Source: Candidatus Cloacimonadota bacterium
GTDB taxonomy: Bacteria > Cloacimonadota > Cloacimonadia > Cloacimonadales > Cloacimonadaceae
Direction: 5' to 3'
Length of the DNA stretch: 55,970 bases
Assembly (NCBI GenBank): GCA_020532085.1
Contig: JAJBAV010000016.1
Location: 1-55,970, forward strand
The translations under genes were made by a program, and so were the position numbers. Positions 15,046-31,512 of this stretch are shown here, one piece after another (the first letter of the stretch is position 1; every line of letters begins with the position of its first letter). The notes beneath the pieces are model-generated. The model saw only the letters and a list, made by a program, of their open reading frames with translations. It was not told where the DNA came from and did no database searches.

Positions 15046-17604
15046 CTATCTGACCCTGGCGAGGCGCAAGGTTGTGGCGCACCCTTCTGTTTTCAGGCTG
15101 CAGAGGTAGATGCCGGGGGAAACGGCGCGGCCGGAGTGGTCCAGGCCGTCCCAGACGATCTCGTGACGGCCCTTGTCGAGGCGGGAATCCAGCAGGGCGC
15201 GGACCTTTTGACCGCGGAGGTTGTAAACAACGAGTTCCGTTGGGCCGGCGGCTTTCAGTTCCAGGCAGATCACGGCGCTGGCGGCGAAGGGATTGGGCCA
15301 GGCGCGCAGCGTGGGATCCGGGCTGGGGAAAACCAGGTCTTCGGTTGCAGAGCCCGGCGTTTGCAGCTCCAGTTCGATGGCGGCCGCGCCCAATACGCCG
15401 CGGGCGAGGGCGTCGGTCCAGGGCCGGCCGGGTTCGGTGGTCCAGCTGTGGCCGCAGGCGCCGTTCACGTCGAAGCGCAGGTTTTGGTATTCAAAGAGGT
15501 TTAGCACCACGGCCACGTGCCCGGAGACGGGGGTGAGGCTGTTCACGGTGTGTTCGAACCTGCCGTTCATGGGGCTGGTGACGTTGCCGATGTCGAGCAG
15601 GATCTCATCCGAGATGGCGCCGCTGGCAAAGCGGTGGATCTTCGCGTTCACCAGTCCCGGCTGGGCCGGAAGGCCCCAGGGATCGGCCACCGCGTCGAAA
15701 GCCAGTTTTTTCACCAGATATTCCTGGGGGCCCAGATCCAGTTCCAGCGCTATCTGGATGGGCACAGCGCCGCGGCCGTATTCGTCCCAGGCCGGAGCAT
15801 CGCTCAGCCAGCCAAACCAGGTGGGCTGCAGCGGATCGACCACCCGCACCCGGGCCAGGGCGCTGGTTTCGAGGCTGGCGGCGTTGACGGCGCGGACCTC
15901 GAGGATGTGCGCCCCCGGAGTGAGCCAGCCGTTCGGGATGTTCGCCGTCCAGGGTTCGGCGTAGGCGGTTCCCACGATCAGGTCGTCGAGGCGGAATTCC
16001 ACCAGGCTCAGGCTCGAGCCCAGGGCGTCGATGTCCGCGGAGACCTGGGTCATGGCGGCGGTAAGGATGGCGCCGTCGGCGGGAACCAGATCCGAGATCA
16101 GGGGCGGGTAGGCCGCGGCGGGGGTGGAAAGCGTGAAAGTGATGGTATCATGGGCTTCCGAGACGCTGTGGATATTCACCGGGGCGGGGTTGCCGTAGCT
16201 GAGGAAGCAGAAGGGATCAGTGTATTGGTTGAAGGCGGTGCGGCCGTCCTGGGCGCTGAAAGTGGCGTCGAAGACAGAGCCGTTGGCGGTTTGGGAGCCT
16301 CCCGGGCGGTAAACGTAAACCTCATCCGGCGGGCCGTCCGCGTTGCCATCCATAGTGGAATTGACGCGGTAGATCAGCAATCCGCTTCCGGGCAGGTTTT
16401 CCTCGAAGATGTCGGCGCCGCGTTTGCGGTATTCGAAAACGAGGGATTCGGTGGAGTTCAGTTCATAGCGGAAAACGTTGTTGACCGGCGAAGTGACGGG
16501 GTTGAGGGTGAAAGTTCCGGGTCCGATGGCGGGAAGGGTGGGCAGCCAGCCGCCGTAGCGGTATTTCATGTGCATGCCCATGTGGCCGGCGCCGCTTTCC
16601 ATGATGTCCCAGCAGCCGGCGGGGGTGATGCCGTCAAAATCGTAGTGGTAGAGGTCCGGAGCGCCCACGCTGTGGAACATTTCGTGGCAGAGGGTGCGCA
16701 CGCTGTTCTGGTTTTCCGGCTGGAAAGTGAAATCCCAGACCATTTTGCCGTTGATGTAAACGTCCTGGGTGTAAAGGGCCCAGCGATGCGCCCAGAGCAG
16801 GTCGGCCCAGGCGGAGTGGGGGCCGCGGATGATGAAGCAGACGTTGTCCACATAGCCGTCACTGTCGGCGTCGATGTTCAAAGTGGAGGGCACCTGGGCG
16901 GCGATGAAGTTCAGAGCGTCGGCCAGCAGCTGATGTTCGCGGTCGGTGCGCTGGAAATCGCGGTAGCCGGTGGGATTGGTGACGGAATTGTAGGGCAGAA
17001 AGTAGGCCCGGGGATGGCTGTCGGTGTAGGAAAGATTCAGGTTTGGAGCGCAGTCCGGGAAGTGGTGGGAAACGTAATCCAGCTGGTCGTAGCTCACCTG
17101 GTGAAAGTAGTTGCGCAGGGAATATTGGTCGTCGCCCACAGCGTTGAATTTGGCGTCGTAAACCGAGCGGGGATCGCTGAATTCCGTTTGGTCGCTGAAT
17201 TTGATGTAAACCACCAGGTTGTTAACGGTGCCGGTGTTCGGCCCTTTGGAGCCGGAGCGGGGGTGGGAATTCATGAACTGCACTTTCTGGCGGTAACGCG
17301 CGGGAGAGATGTTTATCCCGGGTTCGAGGCCCAGGGCGCGCGGATCCGCGGAACCCACCCGGTGGGCGGAAGGGACGGGCTCGCCGCCGGAGCGGATGGC
17401 GTAATAATGCCAGCCATCGGAGGGACTCTGGATGACGGTGAAGCCGTCCGCGTCGTGCAGGCGGTTCGCGTATTCGTCTCCGGAAGCCAGCAACTTGAGC
17501 ACGGAGCCATCCGGCTGCGCCACCTCGGTGGGCAGATCGGAAAAGTTGGCCGCGCTCAGCAGCAGCGGCACCGCAAACAGGATCAGGAACAGAGATCTTT
17601 TCAT
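15046..17604 (-). CDS. Secreted M6-type metalloprotease with FlgD-like sorting domain
   Basis: The protein has a signal peptide (KRSLFLILFAVPLLLSAA) and a short pro-region. Its M6 (immune inhibitor A-like) peptidase domain has the extended zinc site HEMFHSVGAPDLYH near residue 305, matching HExxHxxGxxD. Residues ~500-750 contain Ig-like and beta domains. The last ~90 are the FlgD-like Ig domain (WPNPF, YNLRGQKVR, WDGLDHSG, GIYLCSL) shared with two other window proteins. The true start is ATG 17604, with TGGAGGAAAG just before it; the longer open frame upstream is shadow. It would be an extracellular or surface protease in a protein-degrading lifestyle (inference). Length is 852 residues. Confidence 0.9.
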   Translation of the reverse strand: MKRSLFLILFAVPLLLSAANFSDLPTEVAQPDGSVLKLLASGDEYANRLHDADGFTVIQSPSDGWHYYAIRSGGEPVPSAHRVGSADPRALGLEPGINISPARYRQKVQFMNSHPRSGSKGPNTGTVNNLVVYIKFSDQTEFSDPRSVYDAKFNAVGDDQYSLRNYFHQVSYDQLDYVSHHFPDCAPNLNLSYTDSHPRAYFLPYNSVTNPTGYRDFQRTDREHQLLADALNFIAAQVPSTLNIDADSDGYVDNVCFIIRGPHSAWADLLWAHRWALYTQDVYINGKMVWDFTFQPENQNSVRTLCHEMFHSVGAPDLYHYDFDGITPAGCWDIMESGAGHMGMHMKYRYGGWLPTLPAIGPGTFTLNPVTSPVNNVFRYELNSTESLVFEYRKRGADIFEENLPGSGLLIYRVNSTMDGNADGPPDEVYVYRPGGSQTANGSVFDATFSAQDGRTAFNQYTDPFCFLSYGNPAPVNIHSVSEAHDTITFTLSTPAAAYPPLISDLVPADGAILTAAMTQVSADIDALGSSLSLVEFRLDDLIVGTAYAEPWTANIPNGWLTPGAHILEVRAVNAASLETSALARVRVVDPLQPTWFGWLSDAPAWDEYGRGAVPIQIALELDLGPQEYLVKKLAFDAVADPWGLPAQPGLVNAKIHRFASGAISDEILLDIGNVTSPMNGRFEHTVNSLTPVSGHVAVVLNLFEYQNLRFDVNGACGHSWTTEPGRPWTDALARGVLGAAAIELELQTPGSATEDLVFPSPDPTLRAWPNPFAASAVICLELKAAGPTELVVYNLRGQKVRALLDSRLDKGRHEIVWDGLDHSGRAVSPGIYLCSLKTEGCATTLRLARVR

Positions 17605-17730: not shown

Positions 17731-18066
17731 ATGAAGAAGCTGACCTTGCTGCTGGCGCTGGCGCTGGGGGCGGCCCTGGCCTTCGCGGGCTCGGCGCACG
17801 TGCTGGAAAGCGGCACGCCGGACCTGAAGGTGTGGGTCTGCGCCTACAAAAGCCAGGCCGACCTCTGCGTCTGGGTGGCCGAGTACCGTTCCCAGGCGAA
17901 GGACAAGGACGGGATCTGGTATTTTGAGAAATACAAGAGCAACGCGCATTTCACGCTGAAGATAGTGAAGTACCGCTCTCAGGCGGATCTGCTGGTCTAT
18001 TACGTGCCCTACCGCTCCCAGGCCGGCTGGCGCAGATCCCATCCCTGGACGGGGCGGCTGCGTTAG
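17731..18066 (+). CDS. Small exported YxSQA-repeat protein (DUF6150-like)
   Basis: The 111-residue protein begins with a signal peptide (KKLTLLLALALGAALAFAGS). It is then built from ~15-20-residue repeats of the form (V/Y)xxYxSQADLxVxV: AYKSQADLCVWV, EYRSQAKDKD, KYRSQADLLVYY, PYRSQAGW. This layout matches the DUF6150 family as I recall it; the function is unknown. ATG 17731 follows GGAGGTGCGG. The gene is divergent from the M6 protease with ~126 bases between, and TTGACA at 17666-17671 may be its -35. The basic, Trp-ending tail is not a typical membrane anchor. Confidence 0.75.
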   Translation: MKKLTLLLALALGAALAFAGSAHVLESGTPDLKVWVCAYKSQADLCVWVAEYRSQAKDKDGIWYFEKYKSNAHFTLKIVKYRSQADLLVYYVPYRSQAGWRRSHPWTGRLR

Positions 18067-18518: not shown

Positions 18519-18565
18519 GCAATCCAATGAAAAAAAATAGCTCAATACGGCATAGGAGACAACGT

Positions 18566-21500
18566 ATGAAGTTGTACATACGGCTCTTCATCCTGGCTTT
18601 GCTAACCGGCTTGCTGGCCTTCGGGTGCGGCGGACCGGACGCGCAGGACCAGGCAAAACTGAAGCAACTGGTGGTGGCTAACCTTCAGGTGAAAGACATC
18701 CCCAACGACGGCGGTGACGGCCTGATGCTAAGCTGGAAGCCCCTGCACAAGGACAAGCGGGTGCAGGAATACCGCATCTACCGGGGTGTGCATCCGGACA
18801 CCCTGTTCTTCCTGACCTCGGTGCAGGTGAACGTGAAGACCGGCGTGGCCACCGACGAAATGCTCTATTACGACAGCGGCTACATCAGCCTGGTAAGCCT
18901 GGATTCGCCCGCCCGGCTGAAAAACGAAAAAGGGGCACCCGGCAGCAACCTCTACCGGGGCGTTCCGCGGGACACCGAACTGGTGGCCCGGCTGAGCGAA
19001 AGCTTTGGCCTGCTCTCCCAGATCGAAGACGGCGACTACTATTACAAGACCGTCAAGGCCAGATCGGCCGACCCGGAAGACGAGAGCATCTATGCCGGCT
19101 TGAGATTCAACCAACAGACCATCCTGGCTTCGCTGATGAGCGCCCAACCCGGGCAGAAGCCGGTTGATTATTACTATACAGTGGTGCCCGTGAACGAACG
19201 CAACCAGTATCTGGGCATCGCCAAACCCGTGGCCGGATCTCCGGTGGACGACGCTCCGGAAGCCTCACCCGGGCTGTTCGCGGCCGCGGTGGAAGACAGC
19301 CGCACCCTGCAATTTGAGTGGCAATATCCCCTGAACCACGACGACCTGGCCTCCTACACCATCCACATGGTGCCTGCCATGCCGGATTCCCTCTGGAACC
19401 AGATGAGCCCTCAGCAGCAGGAAGCCCTGGCCGGAGCGGCGGTGAAGATCGCCGAAGGCGGGGTTGGCAGCGGTTCGCTGAAGAACAACTGCGTGATCAC
19501 CGAGGCGGATCTGAGCCAGGCAGCGCCCGGCCTGAGCTGGGAACTGGCCAGCCGGAGCAGCTACAGCATCCGCTTCACGGATTACGGCATGAACCAGTCT
19601 CCGCTGAGCCTGCCGGCAACGCCCCAAAACGTTGTGAGCGGCGCTCTGCCGCAGATCGCCAAATTCCGGGTGGAAGACAAACCCATGGACAAAGGCGACC
19701 GCATCAGCGTGACCTGGCAGGATCCCGTGGTTTCGCTCACCAAAACGTCGTCGCTCCGCAAGGACGGCACCAAGCTGAAAGTGAACTACCAGGTGAATAA
19801 GACCGACCATCAGAACATCAGCAACATCCATTTCGAGTTCTTTGAGCCGGGCAAAACCACCCCCTTTGCCAAAGTCAACGAATTTCACCAGGACAACATC
19901 ATCTATGTGAACATTCCCAAACAATACTCGCTGAAGGGCGGCGGGGAGGTCCCGGACGACAGCCTGAAGGTGAAGATAACCATGGCTGTGAAGCCCTACA
20001 AGATCAATCCCCAAAACGGCCGCATCACCTACGGAAAGAAAAAACTGCTTCCAGACTATGAGATGGTGCAGTACATCAAGCCGGACCCCGCCATGATGGC
20101 CTACATGCCCACGCGGGGACTGTATCTGAACGGGGTGGACGTTTCCCAGGTGCAAAACATAGTTTACCGTAAAAGCTACCGGGGCTCGTCTTACACCCTG
20201 GTGAAAAGCAGCACCTCCTATGAAAACAACCTGGACGTGACCATCGGCTACCTGACCACGGTGAGCAAGCAGGTATCCGGATTCAACTTTGTGAAGGGCG
20301 ATTCGCTCTACACCTACATGGGCGGGAAACGCTTCTCCCGCAAGCTAGCGGCAGGTGAAAAAGCCCGGGACCTCACCTTGGTCTCCTCGGACATCGACTT
20401 CACCTATGACCAGGAAAACGAGACCACGCTGAGCACCAGCATCTATCTGGACGAGGCGAAAAAGACCATCGGCACCATGAAGACCGATCTGGCCGACGCC
20501 CAAAAAGAGCTGGCCGCCTACGGGGATTCCCTGGCCCAGGCAAGCTTGCCGCAAGCAGTGATGGCCTATCAGGGCAAGGTCGCCGGCCTCACCCAAAAGG
20601 TGGAGGGCCTGGAGAAAAAGATCAAGGCCTACAGCGGCAACAAGCTCTTCCAGGAAGCCCTCAAACAAAAGAACAACCGCGGCCTGATGAACCTGGTGGC
20701 CTCCATCCGCGAGCCGGAATCGCGCAAACACACCTATTCGATCGTGAGGACAAACGGCGAAGGCCTCTTCTCCGAAACGGCGCCGGACACCCTCAAAACC
20801 GGAGAGCCGGTGTATTACGCGCCGGTTTCCAATTGGTTCGACTGGAACAAGCTCATCACCCTGATCGCAGTGATCATCTTCGGGATCATGGTGGTGGTGT
20901 TCGTGAACCTGGCCAAGAAGGGCAAGGACCTCTACATGCGGCCCATTGCCGGTTTGCAGGAGATCGACAACGCCATCGGCCGCGCCACCGAAATGGGACG
21001 CCCGATGCTTTACTGCATGGGCAACGGCGGGCTCTCCGACGTGGCCACCCTGGCCTCCATGGGCATCCTGAGCCTGGTGGCCAAAAAAGCCGCCGAATAT
21101 GACACCAAGCTGATCGTTCCCTGCTACGACTACATCGTGATGCCCATCGCCCAGGAGATCGTGCGAGAAGCCCACTACGCGGTGGGCCGCCCGGACAGCT
21201 TTGACAAGAACAACGTGTTCTACCTCACCTCCGTGCAGTTCGCCTACGTGGCGGGCGTGAACGGCATCATGATCCGCGAAAAGATGGCCACCAACTTCTT
21301 CATGGGTTATTTCGCCGCCGAAGCCCTGCTGATGACGGAAACCGGGAACGCCGTGGGGGCCGTGCAGATCGCCGGCTCGGACGCCATCACCCAGATCCCG
21401 TTCTTTATCACCACCTGCGACTACACGCTCATCGGCGAGGAACTCTACGCCGCCTCCGCCTACCTGAACCGCGAACCGATGCTGCTGGGGACCCTCAAGG

Positions 21501-21604
21501 CCCAGGACTACTTCAAGTTCCTGATCCTGATCCTCGTGATCATTGGCGCTCTGCTGGCCACCTTCCAGGTTACCGGCCTAATGCAAATGTTTCCCTTAAA
21601 ATAA
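18566..21604 (+). CDS. Large lipoprotein with C-terminal DUF6754 domain (paralog 1)
   Basis: ATG 18566 is preferred over 18527 because GGAGAC precedes it and it gives a lipoprotein signal (LLTGLLAFGC). Residues ~30-620 are extracytoplasmic with fibronectin-III-like stretches (LSWKPLHK...EYRIYRG). A coiled coil follows (~625-710), then a membrane segment (~760-782, LIAVIIFGIMVVVFVNL), the ~190-residue DUF6754 domain starting KDLYMRPIAGLQEIDNA, and a last membrane segment (~985-1005). Positive residues after the first membrane segment put DUF6754 in the cytoplasm. The DUF6754 part is strongly conserved with the 24168-27041 protein (GSDAITQIPFFITTCDYTLI), while the N-terminal parts have diverged. 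It is the first gene of a five-gene cluster. The biochemical role is unknown. Confidence 0.85.
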   Translation: MKLYIRLFILALLTGLLAFGCGGPDAQDQAKLKQLVVANLQVKDIPNDGGDGLMLSWKPLHKDKRVQEYRIYRGVHPDTLFFLTSVQVNVKTGVATDEMLYYDSGYISLVSLDSPARLKNEKGAPGSNLYRGVPRDTELVARLSESFGLLSQIEDGDYYYKTVKARSADPEDESIYAGLRFNQQTILASLMSAQPGQKPVDYYYTVVPVNERNQYLGIAKPVAGSPVDDAPEASPGLFAAAVEDSRTLQFEWQYPLNHDDLASYTIHMVPAMPDSLWNQMSPQQQEALAGAAVKIAEGGVGSGSLKNNCVITEADLSQAAPGLSWELASRSSYSIRFTDYGMNQSPLSLPATPQNVVSGALPQIAKFRVEDKPMDKGDRISVTWQDPVVSLTKTSSLRKDGTKLKVNYQVNKTDHQNISNIHFEFFEPGKTTPFAKVNEFHQDNIIYVNIPKQYSLKGGGEVPDDSLKVKITMAVKPYKINPQNGRITYGKKKLLPDYEMVQYIKPDPAMMAYMPTRGLYLNGVDVSQVQNIVYRKSYRGSSYTLVKSSTSYENNLDVTIGYLTTVSKQVSGFNFVKGDSLYTYMGGKRFSRKLAAGEKARDLTLVSSDIDFTYDQENETTLSTSIYLDEAKKTIGTMKTDLADAQKELAAYGDSLAQASLPQAVMAYQGKVAGLTQKVEGLEKKIKAYSGNKLFQEALKQKNNRGLMNLVASIREPESRKHTYSIVRTNGEGLFSETAPDTLKTGEPVYYAPVSNWFDWNKLITLIAVIIFGIMVVVFVNLAKKGKDLYMRPIAGLQEIDNAIGRATEMGRPMLYCMGNGGLSDVATLASMGILSLVAKKAAEYDTKLIVPCYDYIVMPIAQEIVREAHYAVGRPDSFDKNNVFYLTSVQFAYVAGVNGIMIREKMATNFFMGYFAAEALLMTETGNAVGAVQIAGSDAITQIPFFITTCDYTLIGEELYAASAYLNREPMLLGTLKAQDYFKFLILILVIIGALLATFQVTGLMQMFPLK

Positions 21605-21616
21605 AAGAGGTCTTAG

Positions 21617-22243
21617 ATGAAGAAGACAGTCCCCCTATTGATAGTGATAATCGGAGGATTCATCTGGCTGGCCTGGGTGTTTGTGCCCCACAGGCTGCTG
21701 CAGGATGTTTTCTACTACGAGTTCTACGTGCCTTGGGTACGCGCCATGGCGCCATTCGGCATGCTGCTGGGCGTGATGAGCCTCTCCATGATGCACTACG
21801 GCAAGATCAAGCGCAAAGCCCCCAAATGGCAGTACAGCTTCTTTTTCTTCGCCGGCTTCATCATCACGTCGCTGGCCGGCTTCATCGGCGGGACCCAGAA
21901 AGGCGGGCTCTATATGTGGCTGTTCGAAAACCTGCAGATGCCGATGAGCGCCACGATGTTTTCCCTGCTGGCCTTTTACATGGCCTCCGCGGCCTACAAA
22001 GCCTTCCGTGCCAGATCGCCAGAAGCCACCGTGCTGTTGGTGGCGGCCATAGTGGTGATGCTGGCCCAGGTGCCGCTGGGGGTGAAGATCAGCAAATATT
22101 TGCCGGATATCTCCCAATGGATCCTGGACGTGCCGAACCTGGCCTCCAAACGCGGGATCATGCTCGGCGTGGGCCTCGGCAGCGTGGCCACCACCCTGAA
22201 GATCCTGCTGGGAATTGAACGTTCCTACCTGGGAGGAGACTGA
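21617..22243 (+). CDS. Multi-pass membrane protein of the DUF6754 cluster (A)
   Basis: The 208-residue protein has about six hydrophobic segments (LLIVIIGGFIWLAWVF, MAPFGMLLGVMSLSM, FFFFAGFIITSLAGFIGG, FSLLAFYMASAAY, VLLVAAIVVMLAQVPL, IMLGVGLGSVATTLKILLGI). A basic loop GKIKRKAPKW marks the cytoplasmic side. It resembles no named family I recognise. It lies 12 bases after paralog 1 and two before the next gene, with AGAGGTC before its ATG. It is likely a membrane core subunit of the cluster's complex. Confidence 0.75.
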   Translation: MKKTVPLLIVIIGGFIWLAWVFVPHRLLQDVFYYEFYVPWVRAMAPFGMLLGVMSLSMMHYGKIKRKAPKWQYSFFFFAGFIITSLAGFIGGTQKGGLYMWLFENLQMPMSATMFSLLAFYMASAAYKAFRARSPEATVLLVAAIVVMLAQVPLGVKISKYLPDISQWILDVPNLASKRGIMLGVGLGSVATTLKILLGIERSYLGGD

Positions 22244-22245
22244 TC

Positions 22246-23439
22246 ATGGAAGAAAAACTGACCTTCTTTGAGCGCATCCAAAGGCTCGACCGCCGCTGGA
22301 TCTACATCGTTGTCGCCCTGGCCATCATCATTCCTTTGATGATCCCCTACAACTCCGACAACGTGACCTCTCCGCCCACCGAAAACGTCTATCAGATGGT
22401 GGATTCCTTCGCCGGACGCGAAGACCGCGCCATCCTGATGAGCTTTTTCCACGACGCCTCCACCATGCCGGAGCTCTATCCCATGCAGATAGCCATTCTG
22501 CGCCACTGCTTCGAGCGCAACGTGAAGGTGTTTTTCCTCTCCTTCCTGCCCACCGGCGCGCCCATCATCGACATGGCCATCAACTCCGTGAAGGAAGAGT
22601 ATCCCAACATCAAGAGCGGCACCGACTATTGCAACTTCGGCTACATCCCTTCCGCTCTCATCATGCAAACCATCATCGGCATGGGCGACAACATCGCCAC
22701 CGCCGTTCCCACCGACGCCGAAGGCCGCAAGGTGGAAAACCTGCCCATCATGAAAGGCATCAACAACTACACGGAAATGAACCTGGTGATCGAGTTTTCC
22801 GGCTCCGTCGCGGGGGGCTACTGGCTCACCTACGCGCGCCCCAAATTCGGCACCAACATCGCCGTGGGCGTTACCGCCGTGATGGCCGCGGATGAATATC
22901 CCTACCTGCAGACCGGACAGTTCATCGGCATGCTGGCAGGCCTGAAGGGCGCCGCCGAATATGAAAAACTGGTGGACGTCTTTGCCGCCTACCGGGCTCC
23001 CGGCGACGAGATGAACCCCTACACCGACGCGGAAGGCAACAAAGTGCTGCCCGGCCGTTCCTTCAGCGACGACGTGCTGGAAAAACCCGAGGTGCAGGAC
23101 CTGATCAAGATCACCACCCAGACCGAGGCCAAGTTCACGCCCGCGGAGTTCCAGAAATTCGTCCAGACCTATTCCGAGGAGGACCGGGCCAAACTGGACC
23201 AAGCAAAACAGGAGGCCGACGGCAAGATCGTGATCGACGTAAGCAAACTGAAGGAGGACGATTTCGCCCCCGCCACCTGGGACGCGCTGAACCGCATGAC
23301 CCGGAACACCCTCTACAAGTTCAAGGTAGCCCGCATCGGCATGAACGCCCAGTCCGTGGCCCACATCATGATCATCGTGTTCATCCTGATCGGAAACATC
23401 GGCTACTTCATCCAGAAAGCTCGCCTCGGCAAGCAATAA
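22246..23439 (+). CDS. Bitopic protein with large globular domain, DUF6754 cluster (B)
   Basis: The 397-residue protein has one membrane segment near each end (~19-36 IYIVVALAIIIPLMIPY and ~370-388 IMIIVFILIGNIGYFIQ). Between them is an alpha/beta-like domain with the patterns AILMSFFHDASTMPE, VKVFFLSFLPTGAP and FIGMLAGLKGAAEYEKL, plus a charged helical stretch (~290-345). Positive ends suggest the domain is extracytoplasmic. The strand-helix order looks similar to DUF6754 itself, though I see no clear sequence identity, so a remote common fold is only a guess. It starts two bases after the previous gene with GGAGG before the ATG. Confidence 0.75.
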   Translation: MEEKLTFFERIQRLDRRWIYIVVALAIIIPLMIPYNSDNVTSPPTENVYQMVDSFAGREDRAILMSFFHDASTMPELYPMQIAILRHCFERNVKVFFLSFLPTGAPIIDMAINSVKEEYPNIKSGTDYCNFGYIPSALIMQTIIGMGDNIATAVPTDAEGRKVENLPIMKGINNYTEMNLVIEFSGSVAGGYWLTYARPKFGTNIAVGVTAVMAADEYPYLQTGQFIGMLAGLKGAAEYEKLVDVFAAYRAPGDEMNPYTDAEGNKVLPGRSFSDDVLEKPEVQDLIKITTQTEAKFTPAEFQKFVQTYSEEDRAKLDQAKQEADGKIVIDVSKLKEDDFAPATWDALNRMTRNTLYKFKVARIGMNAQSVAHIMIIVFILIGNIGYFIQKARLGKQ

Positions 23440-23451
23440 AGGGAGGAAAAA

Positions 23452-24069
23452 ATGACCTTCGAACTCTTCAGCAACCTCGTGGGTGCCTTTTTCACCCTCT
23501 GCATCTTCTCCTTCCTTTACAAGGACAATCCGTTCTATCAGATGTCCGAGCAGCTCCTGGTGGGAATTTCGCTGGGCTATTCGCTGGTGCTCACCTATGA
23601 AAGGGTGTTCATACCTTATTTCTACCAGCCCATCTTCCTCAAACACGAGTGGATCCTGATCATCCCCAGCATCATCGGCATGTTCTATCTGCTGCGCTTT
23701 TCCCGCAAGCTCAGCTGGCTGTCGCGCTATCCCATCGCCTTTTCGATGATGGGAGTGGGCGCCTCGGTGGCGCTGGCCATGCACAACAGCATCCTGGTGC
23801 AGATGCGCCAGGCCATGGTGCCGATCGAGAACGTGAACCTGGCCCTCATCTTCCTGGGCACCATCGCCGTGCTGCTCTATTTCTTCTTCTCCAAGGCCCA
23901 CACCGGGGTCTATGGGAAGTTTGTGAGCGTGGGCAAATGGTTCATGATGGTGGGCTTCGGAGCTTCCTTCGGCCTCACCGTGATGGCCCGTATCTCGCTG
24001 CTGATCGGGCGCATCCAGTTCCTGGTGAACGACGTCTTCCTGGCCATCAAACAGGCCATCGCCGGCTGA
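23452..24069 (+). CDS. Multi-pass membrane protein of the DUF6754 cluster (C)
   Basis: The 205-residue protein has about six membrane segments (FSNLVGAFFTLCIFSFL, LLVGISLGYSLVLTY, ILIIPSIIGMFYLL, YPIAFSMMGVGASVALA, LALIFLGTIAVLLYFFF, WFMMVGFGASFGLTVMA). GGGAGG precedes its ATG, 12 bases after the preceding gene. I do not recognise a family. With protein A it could form the membrane core to which the large DUF6754 lipoproteins attach. Confidence 0.75.
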   Translation: MTFELFSNLVGAFFTLCIFSFLYKDNPFYQMSEQLLVGISLGYSLVLTYERVFIPYFYQPIFLKHEWILIIPSIIGMFYLLRFSRKLSWLSRYPIAFSMMGVGASVALAMHNSILVQMRQAMVPIENVNLALIFLGTIAVLLYFFFSKAHTGVYGKFVSVGKWFMMVGFGASFGLTVMARISLLIGRIQFLVNDVFLAIKQAIAG

Positions 24070-24093
24070 GCGTTACCGCGTTTATGAATATGG

Positions 24094-24120
24094 GGGAAGC
24101 TTTTCCGGGCTTCCCATCCT
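24094..24120 (+). terminator. Hairpin between the cluster's fourth and fifth genes
   Basis: GGGAAGC/GCTTCCC with an 8-base loop is followed by a moderate T/G-rich run. It may partly end transcription, letting less of the fifth gene be made (inference). Confidence 0.45.
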
Positions 24121-24167
24121 TGTTTGTTTGAATCTGAACCGGTGGGCGAGGCCCATGGGATGAACGC

Positions 24168-27041
24168 ATGAATGAAATGATGAAGCTTGGGTTGCTGCTG
24201 CTTCTGGCGGCGGCGCTGTTACTGACGGCCTGTGTGGGCGGGGACGCAACTGAGGCGGAGATAGGGGAATTTGTCGTCCTCGACATGCCTCACGACGACG
24301 GCAGCGGGGTTTTGCTGAAATGGAAGCCCTTGGGCGGCGAACACAGGATCATCCAATACAACATCTACCGCGGCGCCAGCCCGGACAGCCTGTTTTTGCT
24401 TTCCCGCCAGGAAGTGGACCCCAACGCCGGAGTGGCCGGCAACTGGCTGAATTTTGAGGACAAGGGCTTCAACCCCCTCATCGAGTTCGAGACCGCCCCG
24501 GGCAAGCTGAAAAAAGAAAAGCAGCAGGTGGCTGAGGGGACCCTTTACAAAGGCGTTCCCCGGGATACCAAGATCCTGGGTGAAATGCTCCGGCACTATG
24601 ATGTGATCGGAGACATCAAAACTTCCAAATATTACAACGGCTCGCAGCGGGTGGAACTGGGCCAGGGTGAGGACAAAGAGGTCTGGGCCGGCTACCGGCT
24701 GAACCAGTTCAACAACCTCTATGCCAATCCCAAGGCTGAACACAGCTATTACTACTGCGTGGTGCCAGTCAGCGAGACGGGAAAATTCCTGGCCGCGACC
24801 CCGGTGCTGAAGGTGGTTCCGGTGAACAACCGGCCGGATTCCACCGCAGTGCTGCACACCAGCTATCTTACCGATACGAACGAGCTTCGCTTCGAGTGGT
24901 CACCGCCTTTGGGCAGCGAAAACATCGTGGCCTGGGAGGCCTGGCTGATGCCCCGCAGCCTGCTGCCGCAGTTCCAGGCGGACCAAAAGGCCAACGCCAC
25001 CGCTCCGGACAGCGTGTTCAACGCCAACTGGCAACAGGGCTCCATCCTTGTTCACCAGATGGAACCGAGCTACTGGTCCCAAAGTTTTTACGACAAGGTG
25101 GACCTCAACGCCACCCAGGTGCGCTTGCCCGCCCCGGCGGAACTGGCCAACTGGGTGCCGGTGCTTACCTACGCCAATTTCTGGTCATCGGAGGACGGCA
25201 GCCGCCAGGAGTCTTACCAGGCGGCGGCCCTGGGTGAAAAGCTGCAGATCAAGGCCTCAGCGGACCTGCCCCGGCTGCCCGAATTCAGGGTGTTGGACAA
25301 AGTTTACGACAAAGGCGACAACATCATCGTCTCCTTCGGCCGGCCCTTTGCCTTTGTGACCCAGGCCTCCTGGGTGAACAAGGCCAAAACCAGGCTGCGG
25401 GTGAACTATGAGATCGCCGATAACGGCCACGAGAAGGTTTCGCGGCTGCGGCTGCTCTTTCTGGATGCCGATGGCAAAGTGTTGGATGAAGTTCTGGAGA
25501 ACTATCCGGACAAGATCATCCATGCGAACTTACCAGCCGGCCGAAACCCCGAAACCGGCTTCAGCGTTGAGGTGTTCACCGAACTGCAGGGAGAAGGTAA
25601 GTTCCCGGCCCCGCCCATCAGCCAGAAGGTGGTTTACGATCCCCAGGCCTATCGCTTCAACGGAGGCACGGTTACCAGCGCCAACCAGGAACTGAACCGC
25701 ATCTACTACGACATTTTCAGCAAGAACAATCTGAGCGGTTCTTACAGCCCCGGCATGCGCATAGGGGCCCTGAGCCGTTACTACGAGCATCTGGTGCCCT
25801 TTGAGGATACCCAGATGCCGCTGATCAGCAAGATCGACCCCAAAACGGGCCTGGTGCTCACTGACCCGCACTTCACCGTAGCGGTTGATCCGGCCTCCGG
25901 CGCCACCCTCTCTCCCAGCCTGTATAAACAGGACATGGAAGAGCATCTCAAAGGCCTGGCTGCCGGGATCGCGGAATTGAAACAGACGGTGGCCCCGGGG
26001 GACACCCTTTCGGAAGCGGCCCAGGAACTGAAAGCCAGCGAGGCGGAGCTGGCCTTCATCAAAGGCCATCCGGCGTATCAGGCCGGCAGCAAAGCCACCA
26101 ACGACAAGGCCTGGCGCCGCGTAATGCTAAAGGAACTGGACCAGAACTCCCGCGCCTACCAGTATGAACTGCTGGCCACCAACGGCAAAGGGCTCTGGGC
26201 GGATCAGAGCGATCAGCCGGAACTCAAACCGTCCGGTCCCGGGATCGATGCTCCGCTGCATCCCAGGGGCGAGTGGTTCGACAAAACCAAGCTGGCCACC
26301 CTGCTGGCCTCCATCATCCTGGGGCTGATGGTGGTCTATGCCATCTTCCAGGCCCGGCGCAAGGACCTCTACATCCGTCCCATCGCCGGTTTGGAAGAAC
26401 TGGACAACGCCGTGGGCCGAGCCACGGAGATGGGCCGTCCGGTGATGTTTGTGCCCGGCTGGGGCACGCTGGGAGATCCCTGCACCATCTCGGCCATGAT
26501 GATCCTCAACAAGATCGGCGGCAAAGCCGCGGAATATGACATCCGGCTGATCGCGCCCCAAGTGGACTATCTGGTGCTGCCGCTGGCCCAGGAAATGGTG
26601 CAGACCGCTTTCAACGAGGCCGGCCGCCCCGACGCCTACAACCAGGATGACATCTACTTCGTTTCCGACACCCAGTTCGCTTTCTGCGCCGCCGTGAACG
26701 GCATCACCGTCCGGGAAAAGGTGGCCACCATCTTCTACATGGGCTACTTCTACGCGGAAGCCCTGCTGATGACCGAAACAGGCAACCAAAGCGGCGCCAT
26801 CCAGATCGCCGGCTCGGACGCCATCACCCAGATCCCCTTCTTCATCACCACCTGCGACTACACCCTCATCGGCGAGGAATTTTACGCCGCCTCGGCCTAC
26901 CTTTCCCGCAACGTGGAACTGGTGGCCATGCTCAAGGCCCAGGACTATTTCAAGATCCTCATCGTGATCTGCGTGCTTGTCGGCACCGTGATCTCCAGCC
27001 TGGGCATCAACGCCTTCCTGAATTTCCTGCCGATGGAGTAG
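24168..27041 (+). CDS. Large lipoprotein with C-terminal DUF6754 domain (paralog 2)
   Basis: The lipoprotein signal ends LLLTAC. The layout copies paralog 1: fibronectin-like N-terminal region (LLKWKPLGGEHRII, YNIYRGASPDSLF), YKGVPRDTKILGEM block, coiled-coil-like stretch (~585-640), membrane segment (~706-726, LLASIILGLMVVYAIF), DUF6754 (KDLYIRPIAGLEELDNA through DYTLIGEEFYAASAYL) and a last membrane segment (~930-950). The protein is 957 residues. Identity with paralog 1 is high in the C-terminal third and low elsewhere. The start has no clear ribosome site, and ATG 24177 or 24180 are alternatives. It lies 98 bases after the fourth gene, behind a hairpin, and ends before a strong terminator. 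Confidence 0.85.
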   Translation: MNEMMKLGLLLLLAAALLLTACVGGDATEAEIGEFVVLDMPHDDGSGVLLKWKPLGGEHRIIQYNIYRGASPDSLFLLSRQEVDPNAGVAGNWLNFEDKGFNPLIEFETAPGKLKKEKQQVAEGTLYKGVPRDTKILGEMLRHYDVIGDIKTSKYYNGSQRVELGQGEDKEVWAGYRLNQFNNLYANPKAEHSYYYCVVPVSETGKFLAATPVLKVVPVNNRPDSTAVLHTSYLTDTNELRFEWSPPLGSENIVAWEAWLMPRSLLPQFQADQKANATAPDSVFNANWQQGSILVHQMEPSYWSQSFYDKVDLNATQVRLPAPAELANWVPVLTYANFWSSEDGSRQESYQAAALGEKLQIKASADLPRLPEFRVLDKVYDKGDNIIVSFGRPFAFVTQASWVNKAKTRLRVNYEIADNGHEKVSRLRLLFLDADGKVLDEVLENYPDKIIHANLPAGRNPETGFSVEVFTELQGEGKFPAPPISQKVVYDPQAYRFNGGTVTSANQELNRIYYDIFSKNNLSGSYSPGMRIGALSRYYEHLVPFEDTQMPLISKIDPKTGLVLTDPHFTVAVDPASGATLSPSLYKQDMEEHLKGLAAGIAELKQTVAPGDTLSEAAQELKASEAELAFIKGHPAYQAGSKATNDKAWRRVMLKELDQNSRAYQYELLATNGKGLWADQSDQPELKPSGPGIDAPLHPRGEWFDKTKLATLLASIILGLMVVYAIFQARRKDLYIRPIAGLEELDNAVGRATEMGRPVMFVPGWGTLGDPCTISAMMILNKIGGKAAEYDIRLIAPQVDYLVLPLAQEMVQTAFNEAGRPDAYNQDDIYFVSDTQFAFCAAVNGITVREKVATIFYMGYFYAEALLMTETGNQSGAIQIAGSDAITQIPFFITTCDYTLIGEEFYAASAYLSRNVELVAMLKAQDYFKILIVICVLVGTVISSLGINAFLNFLPME

Positions 27042-27065: not shown

Positions 27066-27098
27066 CCGGGATGCCAGGCTATGGCGTCCCGGTTTTGT
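27066..27098 (+). terminator. Intrinsic terminator of the DUF6754 cluster
   Basis: CCGGGATGCC pairs with GGCGTCCCGG (one G-T wobble) around a 7-base loop, followed by TTTTGTTTG. It lies 25 bases after the stop of the fifth gene. Confidence 0.75.
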
Positions 27099-28882: not shown

Positions 28883-29308
28883 TCAGGGCCAAAGCCGGTA
28901 TTTATCCACCGGGTCACGGATGATCCCGTCTTTGATGTCGGCAGGATCGTAATATTCGTAGCCCAGTCCGTTGCAGCGCAGAACTCTGTCCGCGCCCATC
29001 AGGATTCCGAGGATTCCATATCTGGAAAAAGCCTCCCGGGTGAAGGCGGAACAGCTGGGCTCAAACATGCAGGCGGGCTCATTCTGCGAGGAAATGAAGG
29101 TCTGATAGAGGGTCAGCGCTCCGTTCACCAGCAGCTTCAGCTGGTCCGCGTTGGTGAATCCGCGTGCTGGTGCCGATGAGGCTTCCGGGTCTGGGGCTGG
29201 CCGGGTTGCCGGGGGCGGGCTCACAGTCCGCGCGTAATCCTCCGCCGGAGTGGCATTCAGGCCCACCCCTGCCAGCAGCAGCAACAGCCAAAAGATCAGC
29301 TTTTTCAT
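28883..29308 (-). CDS. yidD: YidD-family membrane protein insertion factor with N-terminal extension
   Basis: Residues ~55-141 carry the YidD signature: Y(Q)TFISSQNEPACMFEPSC, SAFTREAFSRYGILGILMGA and RVLRCNG. YidD assists YidC-dependent insertion of inner-membrane proteins. Unlike typical ~75-100-residue YidD, this one has a signal-peptide-like N-terminus (KKLIFWLLLLLAGVGL) and a Pro/Ala-rich linker. The family normally has only an amphipathic N-terminus, so the placement of this copy is uncertain. Its ATG overlaps the LolA-like stop by four bases. No rnpA or yidC is adjacent. Confidence 0.85.
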   Translation of the reverse strand: MKKLIFWLLLLLAGVGLNATPAEDYARTVSPPPATRPAPDPEASSAPARGFTNADQLKLLVNGALTLYQTFISSQNEPACMFEPSCSAFTREAFSRYGILGILMGADRVLRCNGLGYEYYDPADIKDGIIRDPVDKYRLWP

Positions 29309-29997
29309 TCCTTGCTTTGGTCCAGTTCCCGCTCCAGCGCCTTGAATTGGTCCAACAGGACGGAGTAATCGGCGAACTCCGGGTTTTGATACTCGATGGT
29401 CTCGGTTCTCGGTCCCGCCTCGGTGAGCTGCCAGGCGCAGGTTTTAAGGGGCACCTGATAGCCGTGGTGGGATATGTGCCGCGCATAGGTGTTGGCGGCC
29501 ACCAGCACCTGTTCGGAGTTGTAACTTCTGCTTGCCACCAACGCCTGCCCCAGGTAGTTCAGTTCCACCAGGCTTATCCTTGCCTTCAGCTCATCCGGGG
29601 CCTGCCACAGCACGGTGAGCGTGTCCTGGTCCACGCTGCTGGAGAGGATGGTGAAGCCGAGTTTGGAAAGCCCGAAATCCTCTTGCACCGCCGAGATAAG
29701 CGCGGAGATGAAGGGCGGCGACACCTCAGTTTTTTTGGGGATCTTGTAGCTGGCCTGTTGCTCCGGATAGTGCACCAGAAAGTAGTCATCAGTGTAATGC
29801 AGCCATTGGGACAGAGGCTCCTCCACGAAGATCATCACTTCGCCCGGAAACTGGATGCGGATCTTGCCGGAGCTGTGTTCTTCGCCTCCGGCGGTTTGCA
29901 GCGTGCGCTCAAAGTCAGCCCCAAAACCTGGAAAGGCCTGCGCCCCCAAGCTCAGGGACAGCAACAGCGCCAAGGCCGCGAGGGCTTGTTTCGCCAT
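29305..29997 (-). CDS. lolA: LolA-like outer-membrane lipoprotein carrier protein
   Basis: The protein has a signal peptide (ALAALALLLSLSLGAQA) and a half-barrel LolA pattern: GKIRIQFPGEVMIFVEEP, YFLVHYPEQQASY, then paired strands. LolA carries lipoproteins across the periplasm, which fits the many lipobox proteins here and the LolC/E-like permease at 4194-5450. The length of 230 is normal. The ATG lies just after the T-run of a terminator-like hairpin and has no ribosome site, which is odd (see findings). It overlaps yidD by four bases. Confidence 0.75.
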   Translation of the reverse strand: MAKQALAALALLLSLSLGAQAFPGFGADFERTLQTAGGEEHSSGKIRIQFPGEVMIFVEEPLSQWLHYTDDYFLVHYPEQQASYKIPKKTEVSPPFISALISAVQEDFGLSKLGFTILSSSVDQDTLTVLWQAPDELKARISLVELNYLGQALVASRSYNSEQVLVAANTYARHISHHGYQVPLKTCAWQLTEAGPRTETIEYQNPEFADYSVLLDQFKALERELDQSKE

Positions 29998-30406: not shown

Positions 30407-30693
30407 TTTGTGACTCCTTTATTTTTGCGTCCACGGTCGGCTTGGCAGCTGCCGCGAACCCTTTGATCGCGCATATCAGGCCGGATCAGCCTGCTCTTTT
30501 CCGCATTCCAGCATCCACTGCGCAGGGCTGGCCCCACCAGCGGAAACTTTATCCACGAGCGGTGACACTCTATTCACCCATTACTTCTGTCAAGTTTTTC
30601 TTGTGGCTTTGTCACAAAATATGTCTTGACGGAAAATCTGCCCGCCGAACGATTACCTAAGACTGAGAAAAACACCAATCGGTGGAGGATAGC

Positions 30694-31512
30694 ATGAAAC
30701 AAGTGATCCTAATTTTGTTTGTTCTGTCGGCTCTGACTGCTGTAAGCGAAGCCGCGCCCCTGCAAACTTTGGGAGGGCTGCGCACCCCGGACGCCTATCT
30801 TATTCCCCACAGATCCGTGAAAGTGACCCTGGTCGGCTATTACAGGAATGTGGAAAGGCCTTCCTATGTTGACCAGGACAAAAACGGCCTCCATTTTTAC
30901 GGCATGGTTGGGGTGGGTATGTTCGACTGGGCTGAAGTGGCTTTCTTTGGCGGAGATTATGTCTACTTTTTCGATGCCAAACTGCGGCTGCTGAAAGAAT
31001 CCAAGTACATCCCCCAGATCGCGGTTGGCATGGATAACATCCTTTCTCCGGTCAATCGGCGCCGTTCTCAGGATTATCGGCCCTATTGGGATCCGGAGAT
31101 TGGAGATGAAGGGGCACCATCGTCCGTTTATGATCCTCATGATCTTGGCTGGATCGATCATCCCGACAAGGTCGACTATGAGTATTTTTCGCCATATTTT
31201 GTTTTCTCGAAAGAGGTGTATATAGGAGTCGAATTAAGCATGGGTATGGGAGCCAACAGCTTCACTGGCACGGTACCAAGTATGTTAAGCGGTGTCTTTG
31301 CCTCGGTTGAGGTTCGGCCATTCGACGAAATATCGTTCATGGGCGAATATGACGGCAAGGATTTCAACGCCGGGATAAAGTACTCCTATCGAAACCTGGA
31401 CGTAAGACTGGGGGCCGAAGCCGTGGAGGACTTGGCCAAAGGGTCGGAAGGCAACGGCTACGAAAACAATCTCCGTCTGGCCTTGGGTCTGGCCTACGAA
31501 TTCTCTTTTTGA
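30694..31512 (+). CDS. YjbH-like outer-membrane protein
   Basis: A signal peptide (KQVILILFVLSALTAVSEAA) is followed by a pattern of membrane beta strands, starting LGGLRTPDAYLIPHRSVKVT, which resembles the GLLNTPTA opening of YjbH/DUF940 proteins, and ending in a terminal Phe (AYEFSF). YjbH-type barrels are linked to exopolysaccharide or envelope assembly. At 272 residues it is shorter than classical YjbH, so it is likely a one-barrel relative. ATG 30694 has GGAGG five bases upstream. TTGACG at about 30627 may be its -35. Confidence 0.7.
   Translation: MKQVILILFVLSALTAVSEAAPLQTLGGLRTPDAYLIPHRSVKVTLVGYYRNVERPSYVDQDKNGLHFYGMVGVGMFDWAEVAFFGGDYVYFFDAKLRLLKESKYIPQIAVGMDNILSPVNRRRSQDYRPYWDPEIGDEGAPSSVYDPHDLGWIDHPDKVDYEYFSPYFVFSKEVYIGVELSMGMGANSFTGTVPSMLSGVFASVEVRPFDEISFMGEYDGKDFNAGIKYSYRNLDVRLGAEAVEDLAKGSEGNGYENNLRLALGLAYEFSF

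Follow-up and report, generated by a model that had tools for sequence, protein, structure and literature searches.

Background

GlmL-type proteins of the MutL/GlmL family (PF13941) are supposed reactivating chaperones of cobalamin-dependent mutases, while in type IV pili and type II secretion the actin-like proteins PilM and GspL dock on partners in the membrane. DUF6754 (PF20539) is a Pfam entry without a functional description. A literature search, with subscription papers and preprints outside its scope, yielded no mention of DUF6754, of PF13941 or of the signature of the protein called H below; the one paper returned for GlmL with glutamate mutase appeared, from its title and abstract, to treat a different subject, and wider searches returned nothing relevant to the system described here.

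The present study concerns a window (the whole stretch of DNA that was analysed, 55,970 nucleotides) from a Cloacimonadota metagenome-assembled genome (MAG), in which a preliminary description had recognised five adjacent genes, two encoding large DUF6754 lipoproteins and three encoding membrane proteins, and had proposed that they form an undescribed membrane complex. We denote a DUF6754 protein D and the three middle components g2, g3 and g4, and we define the module as the g2, g3 and g4 homologues following D on the same strand in fixed order. DUF6754 was found in 150 of the 291 genomes sampled.

Results

The gene cluster in the window

On re-checking, the coordinates and shared strand of the five genes and the gaps of 12, 2, 12 and 98 bases between them proved exact. 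The start of the first gene at 18566 was favoured over a longer frame from 18527, as it is preceded at 7-8 bases by a GGAG and followed by a signal peptide. The features of the cluster are the following.

18555-18558 (position approximate), forward strand: candidate ribosome-binding site GGAG of A1, from the sequence
18566-21604, forward strand: A1 (component D), 1012 aa; PF20539 at E=1.4e-117, hydropathy, orthologues in Cloacimonadota loci
20828-21592, forward strand: DUF6754 domain of A1; domain match and model of residues 720-1012
21617-22243, forward strand: A2 (component g2), 208 aa, polytopic membrane protein without a Pfam or NCBIfam family
22246-23439, forward strand: A3 (component g3), 397 aa, without a known family; model pLDDT 94
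23452-24069, forward strand: A4 (component g4), 205 aa, polytopic membrane protein without a known family; carries charged residues that are conserved
24094-24115, forward strand: terminator-like hairpin in the gap between g4 and A5; consensus match only
24168-27041, forward strand: A5, 957 aa, second DUF6754 protein, of the A5-type clade; PF20539 at E=8e-112
26265-27023, forward strand: DUF6754 domain of A5; domain match
27066-27092, forward strand: terminator-like hairpin of 11 pairs at the end of the cluster

The hairpin between g4 and A5, the weaker of the two, may bring about transcription attenuation. Both hairpins are put forward as suggestions only, since terminator-like matches in this region are no more frequent than in shuffled sequence.

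The gene of a small DUF6150 protein with YRSQA repeats (PF19647, E=4e-13; 17731-18063, forward strand) lies shortly before the cluster and is overlain by a long spurious frame. Other genes in the window encode a Peptidase M6-type secreted protease whose C-terminal FlgD_ig-like domain resembles a sorting-signal domain (15049-17592, reverse strand), a YidD-family protein with a signal-peptide-like N-terminus (PF01809, E=3e-16; 28886-29308, reverse strand) and, next to it, a 230 aa protein that is LolA-like by eye and is without a Pfam match (29308-29997), and a YjbH-like exopolysaccharide protein identified by a short match (PF06082, E=5e-6; 30682-31509, forward strand).

The DUF6754 proteins A1 and A5

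The two large proteins are clear members of PF20539, scoring 391.9 and 373 bits at a curated cut-off of 27 bits, which bears out their earlier description as a paralogous pair with the common motif GSDAITQIPFFITTCDYTLI. Their portrayal as strongly conserved in the DUF6754 domain and diverged in the extracytoplasmic parts likewise held, the domains being 58% identical and those parts about 29% identical over 512 aligned residues. Many polar residues (R, E, Q, C, D, K) are invariant in DUF6754. Hydropathy supported one signal and two membrane segments per protein; the order in A1 is signal peptide, long extracytoplasmic part, membrane helix, predicted cytoplasmic DUF6754 domain and membrane helix. 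The lipoprotein assignment stood for the window, where the lipobox of A5 (LTAC) is classical and that of A1 (LAFGC) weaker, but did not extend to the family: a simple scan found lipoboxes in 8 of 39 A1-type and 8 of 32 A5-type proteins, the examples listed being close relatives of the window's genome, and a lipoprotein nature is not family-defining because these are a minority.

In the tree of DUF6754 domains, 25 A5-type sequences formed a single clade next to that of the A1-type sequences, with a support of 0.995, and A5, the fifth gene, arose from A1 by a duplication specific to Cloacimonadota. The long DUF6754 proteins of the window's cluster (cluster A) and the short ones of a second cluster in the same genome (cluster B, below) each grouped with sequences from other phyla, and the split between long and short types therefore looks older than the phylum, in a tree whose deepest branches are weakly supported.

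The middle genes and predicted structures

Neither Pfam nor NCBIfam contained a family matching g2, g3 or g4. Hydropathy indicated two membrane segments in g3 and several each in g2 and g4. The AlphaFold models of the DUF6754 domain of A1 (residues 720-1012) and of g3 were confident (mean pLDDT 92 and 94, respectively), and both ran from a membrane helix through a further helix and six strands alternating with helices to a second membrane helix, the six-stranded alpha/beta domain of g3 bearing an insertion. From the charges flanking the membrane helices, the positive-inside rule predicts a cytoplasmic DUF6754 domain and an extracytoplasmic g3 domain. Between the two profiles the N-terminal parts and the C-terminal membrane helices lined up collinearly, at a non-significant probability of 4-5%; a common origin is no more than plausible, since alternating alpha/beta folds are common. 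A fold search of the PDB with both models gave nothing at E <= 0.001, with query-length TM-scores of at most about 0.34 among the matches listed, and a PDB sequence search found no convincing relative with a solved structure for any of D, g3, H and M (the last two being introduced below). Searching contigs with g3 recovered close relatives only, nearly all labelled Cloacimonadota.

A four-gene module in Cloacimonadota

The window's genome contains three DUF6754 genes, the third of which lies in cluster B on another contig (L057 6945-11048 on contig C15). Cluster B reads lipoprotein B0, short DUF6754 protein B1, B2, B3 and B4, and the last three are paralogues of g2, g3 and g4 (35% identity, E=6e-41; 33%, E=8e-36; and 45%, E=8e-53, respectively). 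Clusters A and B thus both follow the order D-g2-g3-g4, and this second paralogous set identifies the four genes as the repeating unit. The five-gene unit of the preliminary description accordingly contracts to four, with the second DUF6754 gene as a lineage-specific duplicate: across Cloacimonadota, 34 loci read D-g2-g3-g4-D and 26 more read D-g2-g3-g4. Since this order recurs from locus to locus, the gene arrangement is non-random, and it is far beyond chance. DUF6754 was present in 86 of the 88 Cloacimonadota genomes at 85% completeness or above. Cluster B is preceded in several Cloacimonadota genomes by B0, which is without a known family (L057 6945-7721), and followed in several by B5, an AMP-binding, acyl-CoA-synthetase-like protein (L057 11061-12596).

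The module outside Cloacimonadota

DUF6754 occurred in 48 of 187 non-Cloacimonadota genomes (about a quarter, in 44 families), at one to seven copies per genome and 96 copies overall, and in none of 14 well-known control genomes. We examined 62 non-Cloacimonadota neighbourhoods holding 75 DUF6754 copies, with genes called by a simple codon-usage caller; the start codons of D are uncertain by tens of residues in places. In 66 of the 75 copies, a count that underestimates adjacency in fragmented MAGs, D was followed on the same strand by g2-g3-g4 with gaps near zero; of the others, one stood at a contig end, four had partial modules and four were alone. The preliminary description had held that the cluster would not be a functional unit if the middle genes were never near DUF6754 genes elsewhere, and its proposal of an undescribed membrane complex comes out of this comparison supported, with homologues of the middle genes coming after D almost everywhere.

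Across the 187 genomes, D and g3 were found together in 48, D without g3 in none, g3 without D in one and neither in 138 (Fisher P = 4e-44 in a test that ignores phylogeny). The single genome with g3 but without DUF6754 (G199) holds a divergent g3 homologue (E=1e-26). In several genomes the whole block is tandemly repeated two or three times, with independent duplications at six loci (L127, L128, L133, L135, L137 and L140). At one locus (L147 4263-6968, reverse strand) g4 is followed by three more tandem g3 genes, which shows that g3 can be amplified independently of the other components. Plasmids and viral contigs held no DUF6754 relatives and thus gave no sign of mobility.

That the genes are mere neighbours, through chance or shared ancestry, is exceedingly improbable, for although the Fisher tests are uncorrected for phylogeny and the sampled genomes may cluster in few phyla, this reading is refuted in practice by the strict gene order, with gaps close to zero, across dozens of families, by tandem duplications that copied the complete block independently and by the presence of g3 in every genome with D.

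Soluble partners of the module

In many non-Cloacimonadota genomes a partner set of three genes, S, M and H, lies directly upstream of the module. S is a small protein of about 115 aa. M matches PF13941, an actin-fold-type ATPase family, at E=1e-120 to 1e-129 and retains the motifs DCGSTTTKA, DIGGATTD and GSGG; judging from these intact nucleotide-binding motifs, M is probably a hydrolysing ATPase of the ASKHA (actin/Hsp70-like) fold class. H is about 375 aa long, begins MAHAYTPGL and has a mean column identity of 59%. Its match to Biotin_lipoyl exceeded the cut-off in one of two examples, and its matches to RnfC_N (23.6 in L142 and 19.3 in L145, cut-off 25.6) and NQRA_N (21.7 in L142, cut-off 25) fell below. 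A small membrane protein, T, lies upstream of S in at least nine loci, giving the full order T-S-M-H-D-g2-g3-g4 in several genomes; S-M-H-D-g2-g3-g4 or a close variant was seen at L129, L142, L144, L146, L153, L157, L164, L165, L168 and L179, and at L145 the blocks are reversed (D-g2-g3-g4-S-M-H). In 11 loci H and D overlap or are separated by no more than about 30 bases. In four genomes (L144, L164, L165 and L188) the T/S-M-H-D operon is preceded, directly or at a short distance, by genes for glycine dehydrogenase (the glycine cleavage P protein).

The firmest link came from a search for H across all 291 genomes. D and H co-occurred in 45 of the 187 non-Cloacimonadota genomes, with D alone in three, H alone in none and neither in 139 (Fisher P = 4e-40, again ignoring phylogeny). 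There were 55 H matches in the 45 genomes, and 19 of the 24 genomes with at least two D copies had one H. The window's genome carries an intact S-M-H on contig C3 (L151 6880-10295), and the complex would also have this soluble part, encoded outside the window and hence beyond the view of the preliminary description. The two parts can occur apart, because three D-positive genomes are without detectable H (G136, G164 and G183) and two Cloacimonadota genomes carry S-M-H without a DUF6754 or g3 match (L199 in G030 and L200 in G034); in these two, S-M-H may act alone or the MAGs may be incomplete. We hold it highly probable that D, g2, g3, g4 and H are functionally linked.

Fusions of M and H were also observed. 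In another Cloacimonadota genome, a fused M-H gene lies immediately upstream of cluster A (L075), and in the window's genome a 961 aa M-H fusion lies near methylmalonyl-CoA mutase-like genes (L152 7440-10325 on contig C33). A cobalamin link drawn from this fusion was rejected, the mutase neighbours not being repeated in six other Cloacimonadota.

Discussion

A proposed mechanism and its rivals

Because H is single in most genomes whereas D copies number one to seven, the data suggest one shared engine with several specificity units. We propose an ATP-driven complex of the inner membrane in which one engine powers one to seven membrane units to move or remodel some substrate of the envelope, a reading to which we assign an even chance. 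Within the membrane, g2 and g4 would form a core together with the helix pairs of D and g3. M would dock onto the cytoplasmic DUF6754 domain, with H as adaptor, a role that its barrel-sandwich region suits as far as sequence can indicate, and with S and T as anchors. ATP turnover by M would drive a conformational change across the membrane to g3 and the D ectodomain, and the likeliest outcome would be that a substrate is moved or remodelled at the cell envelope. Specificity would differ from one D unit to the next, all of them served by the common engine; here the engine would be that on contig C3 and the units would be cluster A, with its duplicated D, and cluster B on contig C15. The characterised GlmL-type relatives of M are accessory proteins of cobalamin enzymes and not transport motors, which counts against a motor. 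More broadly, the system could represent a widespread and hitherto unrecognised class of ATP-driven machines that combine, as the engine, an ASKHA-fold ATPase with a barrel-sandwich adaptor, a membrane core with ancient sister alpha/beta domains on both membrane faces, and the sharing of one engine among several substrate-specific units; we offer this tentatively, as somewhat short of an even chance.

Three other readings of the system were each considered unlikely. The module could be a sensor in which the D ectodomain, g3 or both bind an outside ligand and alter the state of the cytoplasmic DUF6754 domain, with the signal passing through H and M, an extension of the signalling idea in the preliminary description. 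The combination of variable ectodomains with a highly conserved cytoplasmic domain (29% vs 58% identity) and the presence of up to seven D copies per genome would suit such a role, but the module contained no kinase, cyclase, receiver, DNA-binding or other output domain, and a sensor of the one-component type would not need two very conserved polytopic proteins; we judge it improbable.

We give a similarly low probability to a membrane-bound enzyme, with DUF6754, g3 or both as the catalytic part and M as a reactivating chaperone. This would accord with the PF13941 match of M, which is distantly related to GlmL and Or-4, with the invariant polar residues of DUF6754 and with the M-H fusion near mutase-like genes in the window's genome. 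Against it, M scores far below the equivalog cut-offs (221 vs 475 for GlmL and 198 vs 600 for Or-4), the operons are without a cobalamin-binding partner and the fused M-H gene lies away from mutase genes in six other Cloacimonadota.

A platform that exports or assembles surface proteins or polymers, working like type II secretion or type IV pili, is also doubtful. By analogy, a cytosolic actin-fold-type protein, small membrane proteins and long ectodomains, with several units per genome, could make up such a platform; however, M is without a PilM_2 match while PilM_2 is encoded elsewhere in the genome (C1:188389), and the neighbours of the modules include no recurrent secretin, pilin or RecA-type secretion ATPase. 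The occurrence of PilM_2 is itself uninformative, since 268 of the 291 genomes have it whether or not they carry D.

For the preferred reading of an ATP-driven complex, the findings supply a concrete hypothesis that can be tested in any cultured carrier. The system, present in about a quarter of the sampled bacteria outside Cloacimonadota and in nearly all Cloacimonadota, also brings into one shared context eight families without an assigned role: g2, g3, g4, S, T, H, DUF6754 and the non-GlmL branch of PF13941. Its absence from the 14 well-known control genomes may explain why it was missed.

Comparison with known systems

We rated the machine as new as a system, outside GlmL, Nqr/Rnf, the type IV pilus and type II secretion, ABC and ECF transporters, and defence systems; for the last of these, PADLOC anti-phage defence models gave no matches for eight proteins. 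M belongs to the PF13941 (MutL/GlmL) ATPase superfamily, yet its scores of 221 and 214 bits lie below the GlmL cut-off of 475 (NF040745), and M is tied to a membrane module whereas GlmL is tied to a cobalamin mutase.

The barrel-sandwich region of H resembles the N-termini of RnfC and NqrA, and also the corresponding regions of biotinyl/lipoyl carriers; like RnfC and NqrA, H may sit peripherally on the cytoplasmic side of a membrane complex. The H examples nevertheless fall below the RnfC_N and NQRA_N cut-offs, g2 and g4 match no Nqr or Rnf subunit, and no redox motif was recognised in this comparison.

Two further likenesses concern manner of working. With the PilM of type IV pili and the GspL of type II secretion, the system would share a cytosolic actin-fold-type protein on a membrane platform, although M has no sequence match to PilM_2 (PF11104). 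The components include no ABC ATPase and are unrelated to ABC and ECF proteins, and ABC genes lie near only a few modules; the likeness to group II ECF transporters is a works-like analogy only, in which one energising module would serve several membrane specificity units.
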